Below, one piece after another: positions 44,753-50,347 of a stretch of DNA of 64,000 nucleotides. The stretch is from contig NC_089281.1 in NCBI RefSeq assembly GCF_963678975.1, forward strand, positions 6,535,277 to 6,599,276, in the 5' to 3' direction. The notes under the pieces are model-generated. The model was not told where the DNA came from. It ran no database searches and saw only the letters and a program-made list of their open reading frames with translations. A program made the translations under genes and the position numbers. Numbering within the stretch: position 1 is the first letter of the stretch; the number at the start of each line of letters is the position of its first letter. The stretch comes from Dysidea avara (Eukaryota > Porifera > Demospongiae > Dictyoceratida > Dysideidae).

Positions 44753-46096
44753 TCATCTTTCTATTAAACTAAACACAGTGTCAATAAAACTATCACTTGT
44801 CATCTGTGGTGAATCATGAATCGTTTTATAGTCAACAATAGCTACATTATTAGTGCTTAGTTCCTTTTTTCTGCTCTTTAATTTAATTTTCCTCGGTCTG
44901 ACCCTACAATACCCATCATAAGAACGACTAGAATAATAACTTGATATTGATCTCCATTTATGGTGCATGCCGCCGCTTGTAGGTATAGCAGACTTTTCAA
45001 TATAATTTTCATTCTTCTTGGACAACTCTTTAGTCTCATTTTGAGAAGTTGTGGGGTAGTTGTTTGATGCTGACAGGCAAAAGTCCCTCATCCGTGACTC
45101 CATGAAGGTTGCATCCAGAGTAACACTCTCTACACACAACCAATGTAATATCACACATACACTGCACCATATGATACTAATTACCGCCAATATCATGTTG
45201 GCCTACTGCATAATTTCCCATGCTAGTACTCTGTAGGTGGCAGCATGTAAAAGCACTTGATAGTTTTAAACTATTACTTTTGCATCACTGTCGTTCCACG
45301 TAGCCAGTGTCTCTTGCAACTGTGAAAGATACTTCACATGGCACTGCAGAAAAGCCCTATGAAAATACACATGTCAAATGTATCATGCTTCTTTCTGAAT
45401 ATTATATACCATAATCTACTGATGGTAGCACACATCATTAAATAGAAGGGAACAAATAATCCTGGCATTAACTGGTATTGTTGGATCTCCCTGATATACA
45501 GCAATTACATCATAAAGCTTTAAGTCTCAGTATACCAAAAAGTATCTTCACAAAACGTCAACACTTTCTTCAACAGTACACAACATTGTGGTATCTGTTG
45601 GGTGAGTTCATAAACCACAGACTGAACCTTATCGTCATGGAGGTAGTTGGTGGCATTGATCCCTCCAAGATTAAACCTGTATCTGAAATGAATAACACAC
45701 AACATCAATGCATTTGGATGCATCATATAGACGACTGTAGTATCAGATTTTCAGCAACAGCTGTTGTGTATTTAATGACCTGCAGTATAGACAACAACAT
45801 CAATGAATAGTTTACTTTGCTAGTAATCTTTGAAGATTTTTTATCTTATCTGTTACATTAAACTTATGATACTTTTTGGTATCTTTGCTTATCTGTAATT
45901 GAAATCAGTGTAACGGAGTAACAACTCCGTATAGTCTGATTACCCGGACTAGTTTTTGAAATTGTTTTTCACGCCGATGTTGATTCTTATTCCTGTACAA
46001 CAGTCTAGAGAACACCTCCAGTTCTTGCGATATCGGACATCTCATTAAACTCTTCACTGCTTCGCCGGCTAAATCATAGAACACGCCTACTTCCAT
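44753..46096 (-). CDS. NEPRO: Nucleolus and neural progenitor protein (NEPRO) homologue
   Basis: Six exons, 46096-45944, 45892-45816, 45682-45536, 45490-45410, 45356-45278 and 45127-44753, give 303 aa with consistent phases. Evidence for NEPRO: the N-terminal FSRLLYRNKNQHRREKQFQK matches the LLY.N.N...+.K.F block; FNLGGI resembles the MNLEGS segment; the central CEDTFW.EIQQ...LMMCATISRLW matches the NEPRO_N core (CKTFLL...LVMVGLVSRLW); and the end DSFIDTVFSLIE resembles the vertebrate DDIDDIFALMG. The C-terminal half is basic (RPRKIKLKSRKKE). The protein is shorter than human NEPRO (567 aa). Vertebrate NEPRO is nucleolar and linked to RNase MRP and rRNA processing. The last acceptor (TAGAG before AGTGTTACT) was chosen to keep phase and is the least certain junction. 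The start is divergent from NKRF, 28 bp away. Confidence 0.8.
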
Positions 46097-46124
46097 TTGT
46101 AGCGCACCAAAATAATATTTTGCA
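46097..46124. promoter_or_regulatory. 28-bp divergent inter-start region, NEPRO / NKRF
   Basis: Only 28 bp separate the two opposing ATG codons, so the 5' UTRs or promoters of both genes must overlap each other's transcribed region. Contains TGTAGCGCACC and an AT-rich AATAATATTTT stretch. Confidence 0.6.
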
Positions 46125-47576
46125 ATGGACGACGAAGTTGATACAGCACGTGGCGCTACGGACAGGACGCCTCAGGTTATCAAAATGTACCCATGGGAGG
46201 CTAGGCACGAATGGATCGCCCGGATATCGTTTATAGAAGATCACACTCCGACGTACGGATTTGAGAGGGCGCTTAGTCTCTCTATGGTATGGGCCAACAT
46301 GAAATTCCTAGGATGTCGCTACCCCACAGCCACAGAACAGCTTGTAATGAACTACAACGTGCCAGAAACAGATAAAGGCAGGAAATTTCCAAAAAATGGT
46401 GTGTATGTGTTGAATACAGAAGATTTTCCTGATGGAGTGCCGTTGGGAGCTTTGTCAGTGGTAGCTGATGAAGAATCACATTTACTAGCAGATGAGGAGG
46501 ATAATGACAGTGATACATCAACACAAGTTAGTATGCTTATTTCTGATATTAGAGAAAAGGTTGAGACAGACAAGAAACAGGGTGACGTGAAACCAGCTAC
46601 TACCCCCGTTAGCCCAGAATTGTCAGATATATGTTACAAGCTTAGCCTGCCTGATGATTTGAACCAACAGGATCATCCAGTTTCTGTATTGGATGCCTCA
46701 TGTCAAAAAGCAAATTTGACCATCTCATATGCATTCAAGGAGCACGTTGATGAAACTACTAAGCGTCCCACTGTCATTGGTTACCAAGCAACAGTGTTAA
46801 TCAATGATGTGATTGTCGGTAAGGGTGACAGCTATTCAGCTAAGAAGGATGCAAAGAAGCATGCTTGCGAGGTTGTTATTGAACGTGTGAAGGACATCCA
46901 GAAGTCAACTGGATGTGCCCCTGCACCCAACCAATCTGAGCACATTGAGAAAAGTGAGATTATGCAAACTGGTGGGGTAGGAGACCAGGCAGCCATGTCT
47001 ACCGATGGAATAGGTGGAAAATTGTTACAGAAAATGGGTTGGGATAAGGACAGTACCAGTACTTCCCAGGCTTCTCAAGTGTTTGACTCTTATGGAAACC
47101 TTGGACGGAGTGGGTTGGGATTTGCACCACAAGAATCATCAGCGCTACGACAGAATGTTGAACAAAAACTGTATGAATTTGTGAACTCTGACAAAGATGA
47201 GTTAGTGTTTTCATCAGAGTTTTCCCTTGATGAGCGTAAACTGATCCATTCGTTGTGTGCTAAGTACAAACTCAGTCACAAATCTCATGGTAAAGGAGAT
47301 GAGAGAAAGTTGGTCATCCAGAAGAAAGCAAATGCACAGACAGACTCTGAAACAGCTAACCAAAAAAGTTACGGTCAACACTACGAATTTCACCACTCAT
47401 ACGACCAACAGTCAAACCCATCATCTCAGTATGGGAGGCAGGATGGAGGGAGATCAGCTATGCAAAGTAGCTTTTTTCAACCTGCAGTGAACAAGGCTGA
47501 TTCATCTAGGTCACATCCTTACCAGGGCTACAGGCAGCACCACTCACATCAGATATGGGAGGGGAAAAGATACTAA
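46125..47576 (+). CDS. NKRF: NF-kappa-B-repressing factor homologue (XTBD, dsRBD, G-patch, R3H)
   Basis: Intronless in this window, 483 aa. Domains in order: XRN2-binding XTBD at about residues 20-75 (LSMVWANMKFLGCRYP is the diagnostic core), an acidic linker, a double-stranded RNA-binding domain at about 197-255 (GYQATVLINDVIVGKGDSYS then AKKDAKKHA), a G-patch at about 291-335 (GIGGKLLQKMGW...GRSGLGF), and an R3H domain at about 345-400 (ERKLIHSLCAKYKL). The tail is Ser/Gln/His-rich. This architecture is specific to NKRF, which in human cells is a nucleolar partner of XRN2 and DHX15 in pre-rRNA processing. The NF-kappa-B role of the vertebrate protein cannot be assumed here. The stop is 84 bp before PRIM2. 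Confidence 0.95.
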   Translation: MDDEVDTARGATDRTPQVIKMYPWEARHEWIARISFIEDHTPTYGFERALSLSMVWANMKFLGCRYPTATEQLVMNYNVPETDKGRKFPKNGVYVLNTEDFPDGVPLGALSVVADEESHLLADEEDNDSDTSTQVSMLISDIREKVETDKKQGDVKPATTPVSPELSDICYKLSLPDDLNQQDHPVSVLDASCQKANLTISYAFKEHVDETTKRPTVIGYQATVLINDVIVGKGDSYSAKKDAKKHACEVVIERVKDIQKSTGCAPAPNQSEHIEKSEIMQTGGVGDQAAMSTDGIGGKLLQKMGWDKDSTSTSQASQVFDSYGNLGRSGLGFAPQESSALRQNVEQKLYEFVNSDKDELVFSSEFSLDERKLIHSLCAKYKLSHKSHGKGDERKLVIQKKANAQTDSETANQKSYGQHYEFHHSYDQQSNPSSQYGRQDGGRSAMQSSFFQPAVNKADSSRSHPYQGYRQHHSHQIWEGKRY

Positions 47577-47660: not shown

Positions 47661-50347
47661 ATGAAATACGGATTAAATCCATTCAATGTTAAAAGTTTAA
47701 TTGTGGGTTTGAGATATTTGAAAATGTTTTACGAATCTGATTCGCTTCCAGCAGGGAGTGTGGACCTGGAATGCCTTTACCGTGGGTCGATGCTGCGCTC
47801 ACAACTACTCGTTACACTGTACACTTCAGCTATTGCTGAAAATCCGATGCTACAATCGTCTTTTTATGATGCAGGCGATATTGTTCAAGCCAGTTGTCAT
47901 GTTAGTAGGAAAGCGACCAGATTCCTAACCCAGTTTGAAAAGACTTGTAGTGAAAATGAACTAATGGATGTTAGTAGCCACTATTGTATGCGACTGGCGG
48001 CATGTGGCAGGAAAGATACAAAAGTCATGCTGTTGATAGCTGAGTGTCTTCTCTTCTCACTGAGGTACGCTAACATGGACCCCAGTGACATGACTCAGTT
48101 CCTTTTGAAGCACAAATCACAAGATCTATTTAAATACTTGCCTATAAACACCAAGGACACACTAGACACATTATCTAAGGCTATCTGTAAAAAGGAGAGT
48201 AGCTACACTGTGAAGGTCCCATGGACATATGCACTGGACCAAGTGTCTACTAGAAGTGTAGTATTGGATAATGGAGCTGCCCGTGTGCCTTGTACATATC
48301 TGCTAGAGGCCTGTGTGGACCAATACTTTACCACACTCCAAAGTGGCTTGGACTTTGCCAAGACTGCTTACAGCACAGGTACTGAATGTACAGTGGAATG
48401 TCTCTACAATTCAGACACTTGTCATTGATATTGCACATGCACACATTTTGAACCCTGAAATAAGTAATTGTATGTCATAGTTGGTACTGTTTGAGTAGTC
48501 TCACATGGCCAGACCACTTTTTTCTTTTGTGTTGGGGTAGGGAAAAAAAGAAACACAAAAGAAAAAAAGGAGTCTGGCCATGCGAGACTCCTGTTTGAGT
48601 GAGTGTTGTGAGGCTGGAGGTAATGCTAGAGGAGGTTGGTCACCCTATGACATTTGATTACCTAACGCAAGTATAGTCCCAGGTGTTTAACAGCTGGGAA
48701 AGCAGCACGTTGTACTGAGAGAGTATGTAAGGCTTGGAATATCAGCAAGTGTCAATGTTGAATTAGTTCAATTTCTTTGAGATCACGAGATGAATGACGC
48801 GTGACCAGGTAATGGCATTGACACGTGGAGCATATTTGTGAATACTAAAACTTGTGAACTGATCCTTTACAGTTAGTCACAACTGCATTTTCATGTATCG
48901 GTTCATGTCTGAAAAATTCCCTCCTCATGCTGTTTGTTATCTATTTCTACTAGTGGTAAGTGATGAAAGAATGGCAGAGTTGTTGCCACAAGTGACTCAC
49001 TGGTTGGAGGCTGGTTGTCAGTCTCATGGTAGCAGGGATCACAGCAGAAACACTCCAGCCTATCAGATAAGTGCAGAGGATGTCGACAAGATTAGTGTAA
49101 TGTTCCCACTGTGTATGAGGCGACTACACCGTACACTGAGACGAAAGCATCGACTGAATCATACATTCAGGGTGAGAATTAACTAAAGATGTACTACCAG
49201 AATTACTCTGTCAGCAGATTCAATATACACTGTTCTTGAAGTCTATTGGATTGGGAATGGAAGATGCCATAGAATTCTGGAAATCAGAATACTTAAAACC
49301 ACATTCTGATTGTCAGGTATATGTTGCCTTGTACTGTAGGTTATAACATGTCAACAATATTGGTAGTGTAGTGTTTTGTGCAACTTTACATAGTGAATAC
49401 ACATGCTTAAACTACTCTTTGCAAACATTAGTGTGGCATCTTTCTAATGCAACAGCTGACAATGAAAATGTTGATTAGAAGCCCCTTGAATCACCTTCCT
49501 TCGAAAGAAGGGACCAAAATCCTGAGACCACTGTAGCCAAAACTCGAGACCCTTTTATGGATACCCCTATTTACAAAGATGTACAACTGTCAGGATAACA
49601 TGTAAATTCACGTATGGTAGCATGGCTGTAGCATGCACGCACACACACACACACACTGCAGTCTACCTATATACACACTATCCCCTCCTACAGGCTGGTG
49701 GTTGCAGTCACAACTGGTCATCTGACAAACAGAGGTACACATACAGTATCAGACATCTCTATGGCAAAGAAGGCAGGATGGTGAACTACAGTGCACACAG
49801 TTGTCAAACATTACAAAATCAAGTGATAAATCCAACACACGAAGGAGGATGCCCCTTTAAGTTGTTACACTAAACAACCTCTCCATTTATTCACAACTTC
49901 ATCTTACAGGCATTCAGATAAAGAAAGCTTATATGCTACTCTCTATTCAGACAAACTAGCCACCAGTGACATAGAAGATATTGTACAGCTAGCTAGTTCA
50001 GGACAGTATAGTGCAGCATGTAAGTTACACCACACAGCAAGAGTGAACCTTGTTGTACAAGCAAATGACAAACCAACTGAGGTAATAAAACTTGGGAGTT
50101 GGCCGCCTATAAATTGTGTACACTATATGATTAGATACCATCATCTGTGATTCCCATTGAGTGTGAAGACAAAGACAACACAAAGTTAGCTGATTCTGAG
50201 GTATGTATATACCCTATTGATTTAAGTGACTTGATAAATTAGATTCAGCCAACTACAACTCCTGGTGCTGAGGAAGGTCCAAACCTATTTTTCAGTCCAG
50301 CCAAATACTTCAGTTCATTCGTGGATGAAATACCGAGCGATTCATGA
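47661..50347 (+). CDS. PRIM2: DNA primase large subunit
   Basis: Seven exons, 47661-48378, 48954-49171, 49215-49316, 49694-49860, 49910-50081, 50135-50200 and 50243-50347, give 515 aa (human 509). The subunit pairs with PRIM1 in DNA polymerase alpha-primase and carries a 4Fe-4S cluster. All four cluster cysteines are visible: C293 (FPLCMRRLH), C383 (SAHSCQTLQ), C399 (GGCPFKH) and C439 (SAACKLHH); spacings 90, 16 and 40 compare with 80, 17 and 40 in human. Other family blocks are VPWTYALDQVSTRSVVLDNG, SDERMAELLP, QYTLFLKSIGLGMEDAIEFW and YSIRHLYGKEGR. The N-terminal third is diverged. Intron 1 contains a 94-bp MITE. The stop is 17 bp from the convergent CRLS1 stop. Confidence 0.97.
48497..48590. 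mobile_element. 94-bp MITE related to the 24.9-kb MULE-like element, 10-bp TSD
   Basis: Ends AGTCTCACATGGCCAGACCA / TGGCCATGCGAGACT match the termini of the element at 24879-25327. The 10-bp CTGTTTGAGT flanks both sides (48487-48496, 48591-48600). Lies in PRIM2 intron 1. The interior is A-rich self-complementary sequence. Confidence 0.8.

Follow-up and report, generated by a model that had tools for sequence, protein, structure and literature searches.

Divergently arranged genes are well described in Amphimedon queenslandica, one of the closest systems for comparison with the locus analysed here. The genes reported there as head-to-head, their transcription start sites (TSSs) being within 1 kb, number 11,379 (Fernandez-Valverde and Degnan 2016, PMC4773876), with head-to-head regions representing 22.3% of all regions and 549 of them overlapping (PMC4773876), and head-to-head genes were described as being marked by H3K4me3 (PMC5429095). 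Counterparts of the two genes considered here are described in mammals. Full-length human NKRF possesses an N-terminal XTBD, a dsRBM, a G-patch and an R3H domain (PMC7054742; reviewed in PMC10511037), the XTBD having been overlooked in the annotation of the human gene (PMC7054742). The protein is nucleolar and binds XRN2 and DHX15 (PMC7054742, PMC10511037), both of which it is reported to bring to the pre-rRNA spacers (PMC10511037). NEPRO was identified as a subunit of RNase MRP in human and mouse and renamed RMP64 (PMC12390755, PMC13184271), and in human this enzyme cleaves site 2 of ITS1 (PMC12819141). The nucleolar or rRNA-processing roles which an earlier, sequence-only reading of this DNA had ascribed to human NKRF and NEPRO are to be found in print (PMC7054742, PMC12390755, PMC13184271, PMC10511037). 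In the literature passages retrieved, the two names were encountered together only in protein lists, and NKRF was not mentioned among the listed matches on sponge, Amphimedon and bidirectional promoter themes.

The locus lies in a window of 64 kb (C10:6535277-6599276), the whole stretch of DNA that was analysed, in a genome of 550.8 Mb comprising 108 contigs. Features of the window and of the control regions are collected in Table 1.

Table 1. Coordinates of features in the window (numbered from its first nucleotide) and of control features at proteasome genes (numbered within each locus)
Feature	Position	Strand	Remarks
NEPRO (RMP64)-like gene	44753..46096	-	six coding exons, 303 aa + stop ending at 44753
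NEPRO-like exons	46096-45944, 45892-45816, 45682-45536, 45490-45410, 45356-45278, 45127-44753	-	GT-AG introns
28-bp spacer	46097..46124	.	between NEPRO ATG at 46096 (-) and NKRF ATG at 46125 (+)
NKRF-like gene	46125..47576	+	single ORF, one exon, 483 aa
CpG-rich patch, probable shared promoter region	45851..46425	.	spans both starts
CACGTG E-box/G-box	46147..46152	.	inside first codons of NKRF
EML-type / CNRIP1 pair	15974 / 16157	- / +	gap 182 bp; HELP motif for EML
CCDC97 / LRR gene pair	53347 / 53392 or 53541	- / +	gap 44 or 193 bp; CCDC97 2e-40
Open frame antisense to NEPRO exon 3 and surroundings	45472-45810	+	112 codons
DNA primase large subunit-like gene	47661-50147	+	in tandem 3' of NKRF
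Divergent neighbours of proteasome genes (Pfam)			MIIP 5.5e-17, MIT 9.1e-08, UQ_con 2.2e-08, Peptidase_M16 1.3e-11
CACGTG near proteasome starts	L042 1239, L034 1114-1278, L044 1435, L038 2016, L041 1888		

Identification of the NEPRO-like and NKRF-like genes

Manual joining of the six exons on the minus strand gave a coding sequence that contains no inner stop codon. Its protein matched the Pfam profile NEPRO_N (PF14780) with an E value of 2.1e-11 and 44.2 bits against a cut-off of 24.9, and also gave a weak match to RMP1 (0.0024) that lies below the Pfam cut-off. Among PDB sequences, chain M of 9uh7, the nucleolus and neural progenitor protein of human, was matched best (E 0.0021). Comparison of the spliced protein with the genome returned five matches, all of which were exons of its own locus. 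A search of the genome with the NEPRO Pfam profile gave no match, not even to the known copy, as the domain is split by introns.

The plus-strand protein was found to possess an XTBD (residues 23-76, E 5.1e-15) and an R3H domain (residues 343-400, E 2.2e-14), both above the Pfam cut-off. Between these sit a dsrm (residues 185-253) and a G-patch (residues 293-308), which scored below their Pfam cut-offs (20.7 bits against 23 and 18.9 bits against 22, respectively). The XTBD retains the two residues, Cys and Tyr, on which XRN2 binding is said to depend (PMC7054742); its LGC-Y stretch is shared with C. elegans PAXT-1 (alignment, E 0.026). The domain set is like that of human NKRF (PMC7054742), with the XTBD and its Cys and Tyr accompanied by R3H and by a candidate dsRBM and G-patch; dissimilarities are the length of the protein (483 aa, compared with 784 aa in human; PMC7054742) and the dsrm and G-patch scores below the Pfam cut-off. 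The N-terminal XTBD, missed in the human annotation, is present in the NKRF of the sampled animal. The Pfam matches to NEPRO_N, XTBD and R3H, together with the PDB match, bear out the identities that had been proposed for the two genes.

The NKRF-like protein had one match in the 550.8-Mb genome, namely itself, and a search of the whole genome for XTBD gave a single match (C10:6581467-6581631), which lies within this gene. A separate XTBD match of the CDKN2AIP type was not found in this search, which an intron-split copy could escape. No second copy of either NEPRO or NKRF was found in the genome with searches that were run exon by exon, a procedure that intron-split relatives of either gene could evade. 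No useful NCBIfam match was obtained for the NKRF-like protein, and no relative of it was found in a scan of viral_contigs.

Start codons and the CpG-rich patch

The start codons of the two genes are separated by exactly 28 bp, and the positions and spacing previously given for them proved exact when checked with the ORF of NKRF and the rebuilt six-exon coding sequence of NEPRO. An in-frame TAA is situated four codons 5' of the NKRF ATG, within the spacer, and the NEPRO ATG is preceded at a distance of 26 codons by an in-frame TGA, the interval containing no further ATG in that frame. Owing to these upstream stops, the two ATGs are the first usable ones in the unspliced case; the only other upstream ATGs within 150 nt are one at 148 nt from the NKRF start and one at 98 nt from the NEPRO start. 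With ATGs 28 bp apart, unspliced leaders must sum to at most 28 nt, or else the transcripts overlap.

Both starts are spanned by a single patch rich in CpG, whose 300-bp windows contain 14-20 CpG (observed/expected ratio (o/e) 0.82-1.27), compared with a mean of 4.5 CpG per 300 bp for the 64-kb window. In 200-bp windows from 45800 to 46400 the CpG o/e was 0.91-1.23, and in those of the 500 bp on either side of the patch it was 0.00-0.34; CpG is depleted across the window as a whole (o/e 0.41). No second CpG patch was found between 45.0 and 47.5 kb. One patch over both starts, with no other nearby, fits a single shared bidirectional promoter, and a spacer of 28 bp is too short for two separate core promoters outside coding regions. 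NEPRO and NKRF therefore probably share one promoter, as had been proposed from the sequence; this part of the proposal stands as probable, while the functional coupling that was attached to it does not (see below). A CpG patch is not special to this pair, since the same measure identified nine such patches in the window and 31 in 20 other regions of 10 kb, chosen at round coordinates.

The arrangement could also be produced by separate promoters, with one or both genes taking an untranslated 5' exon from a site within the other gene or on its far side, and the CpG patch mainly serving one of them. Candidate splice acceptors for this exist on both sides. Two AGs end 22 and 121 nt 5' of the NKRF ATG (within 170 nt) with a preceding pyrimidine fraction of 0.71, the nearer of them lying in the 28-bp spacer, and on the NEPRO side three AGs, with a pyrimidine fraction of 0.59, are situated 59-104 nt 5' of the ATG. 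The five acceptors of the NEPRO introns have fractions of 0.53-0.71. Furthermore, an N-terminal exon of NEPRO is conceivable, because the frame is open for 25 codons 5' of the ATG and the NEPRO_N match starts only at position 37. On the other hand, AGs with such pyrimidine content are frequent by chance, only one CpG patch is found near both starts, and the NKRF ATG already stands just 5' of the XTBD. Separate promoters are regarded as unlikely.

Divergent gene pairs elsewhere in the genome

Two more head-to-head pairs, EML/CNRIP1 and CCDC97/LRR, were identified in the window (Table 1). The starts of the EML/CNRIP1 pair were observed to lie over the patch of the window with the highest CpG count.

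As a control from outside the window the proteasome family was examined, for which 18 exon matches were assigned by our own grouping to ten genes, the names of the individual genes being presumed. Comparison of pairs was based on the seven of these ten with a readable start region, leaving out L035, L045 and L047. In four of the seven, the divergent neighbour matched a Pfam profile (Table 1); for the MIIP and Peptidase_M16 pairs this match lies in an ORF other than that of the assigned start codon, and we infer that the two ORFs join. Another two of the seven have a likely divergent neighbour in the form of open frames without Pfam support, one being a CCHC protein with an E value of 0.065, below the cut-off, and the other a frame that we take to be NUP93. 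In the one remaining start region no divergent neighbour was identified. Start-codon gaps for five of the six pairs were 60, 115, 213, 217 and 224 bp, in a control that is small and in which several start codons are putative. The partners of the proteasome genes are mostly unrelated to them in function, the exception being a ubiquitin-conjugating enzyme, with which a pathway is shared. The Brix family of ribosome biogenesis had four matches in the genome and was left out of the control.

The orientation and closeness of NEPRO and NKRF are thus not unusual for this genome. As with the bidirectional promoters of A. queenslandica (PMC4773876), the divergent starts lie well below 1 kb apart, the measure being start codons here and TSSs there. 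Further likenesses to that animal are a start region rich in CpG within a genome that is AT-rich, a G-box of the CACGTG type and an arrangement that is very common (PMC4773876). Differences are the size of the genome (551 Mb compared with 167 Mb), a spacing at the short end, and a pair that is known here from DNA alone (PMC4773876).

The best explanation of these results, and one held with reasonable confidence, is that NEPRO/NKRF is an ordinary divergent pair in a genome in which such pairs abound, the pairing of these two genes being most simply a coincidence. The single CpG-rich patch (45.85-46.4 kb), presumably poor in nucleosomes, would fire RNA polymerase II in both directions, giving a minus-strand transcript for the NEPRO/RMP64-like protein, a subunit of RNase MRP in human, and a plus-strand transcript for an NKRF-type adaptor of the exonuclease XRN2. 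The leaders would then total at most 28 nt, or each transcript would begin within the first exon of the other so that their 5' ends overlap, or splicing would bring in an untranslated exon from elsewhere. That two genes of rRNA processing came to be paired would be a coincidence of close gene packing. The counterpoint to coincidence is that the pair combines the shortest gap measured with two rRNA-processing factors as partners, which would be rare by chance for any one pair; the gap of 28 bp is the smallest among the pairs measured here, the next being 44 or 60 bp. The pair is one further clear case among the numerous head-to-head gene pairs that animal genomes contain.

Functional coupling and the CACGTG element

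A selected co-expression unit is another possible origin of the pairing. According to this explanation one promoter would coordinate NEPRO, the RNase MRP subunit on the endonuclease side, with NKRF, the XRN2 adaptor on the exonuclease side, while pre-rRNA is processed. It is in keeping with the described human roles, RMP64 acting within RNase MRP at site 2 of ITS1 and NKRF bringing XRN2 and DHX15 to the pre-rRNA spacers, and with the yeast genome, in which adjacent pairs of ribosome-biogenesis genes were reported to be enriched and tightly co-regulated (Arnone et al. 2012, PMC3500266). Such adjacency was also reported to be significant in C. elegans (6/106), P. falciparum (4/100) and T. thermophila (2/92) (PMC3500266). 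The locus resembles the yeast pairs in that two rRNA-processing genes stand side by side and divergent, and is unlike them in being a single pair read from its nucleotides, compared with pairs that are enriched and shown to be co-regulated (PMC3500266). Against this, the same source gives adjacent ribosome-biogenesis genes as 0/118 in human and 0/110 in fly, its authors considering the counts outside yeast to be underestimated (PMC3500266), and in the present genome mostly unrelated genes are paired in the same manner.

The CACGTG element was an additional point in favour of co-expression. This motif was described as an element of the holozoan ribosome-biogenesis (RiBi) regulon (Myc/E-box; PMC2570694), and it begins 22 nt past the A of the NKRF ATG. 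It falls within 600 bp of the 5' end of NKRF, the distance used to define the holozoan RiBi element, yet it is frequent in the controls. Its sequence, AGCACGTGGC, lacks the RiBi flanks MAACACGTGYG, a consensus that was defined in fly. CACGTG occurs in the window more often than expected (16 times compared with 7.1), and is present in 11 of the 31 CpG patches of the other regions and in five of the seven proteasome start regions (intervals of 361-673 bp, some ends of which are provisional; Table 1); it is absent from the two other head-to-head pairs of the window. Being common in CpG patches and at proteasome starts, the E-box at NKRF is not diagnostic, and its use as a mark of RiBi-specific control was dropped on these counts. 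It is perhaps a general promoter element of this genome.

The base rate of divergent pairs in the genome itself makes functional coupling unnecessary as an explanation, and the co-expression of two ribosome-biogenesis factors that the sequence-only reading had attached to the shared promoter is left unsupported, given that the genome has many divergent pairs whose partners are mostly unrelated and the E-box does not discriminate. A selected co-expression unit is thus judged unlikely. An ancient, selected NEPRO-NKRF pair, locking a subunit of RNase MRP to an adaptor of XRN2 so that the endonuclease and exonuclease arms of spacer removal are held in fixed proportion, is very improbable. Firing of the promoter in both directions and any co-expression of the two genes are putative. 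Only conservation in relatives would make the pairing more than ordinary, and in that case it would point to a coordinated supply of two nuclease systems of rRNA processing.

Neighbouring open reading frames

The open frame on the strand opposite NEPRO exon 3 and adjoining sequence (Table 1) carries no sign of being a gene. Downstream of NKRF, the first ATG of the primase-like ORF is situated 84 bp past the NKRF stop codon, and the Pfam profile DNA_primase_lrg was found to match three ORFs, two of them below the cut-off and one above it (3.7e-08).
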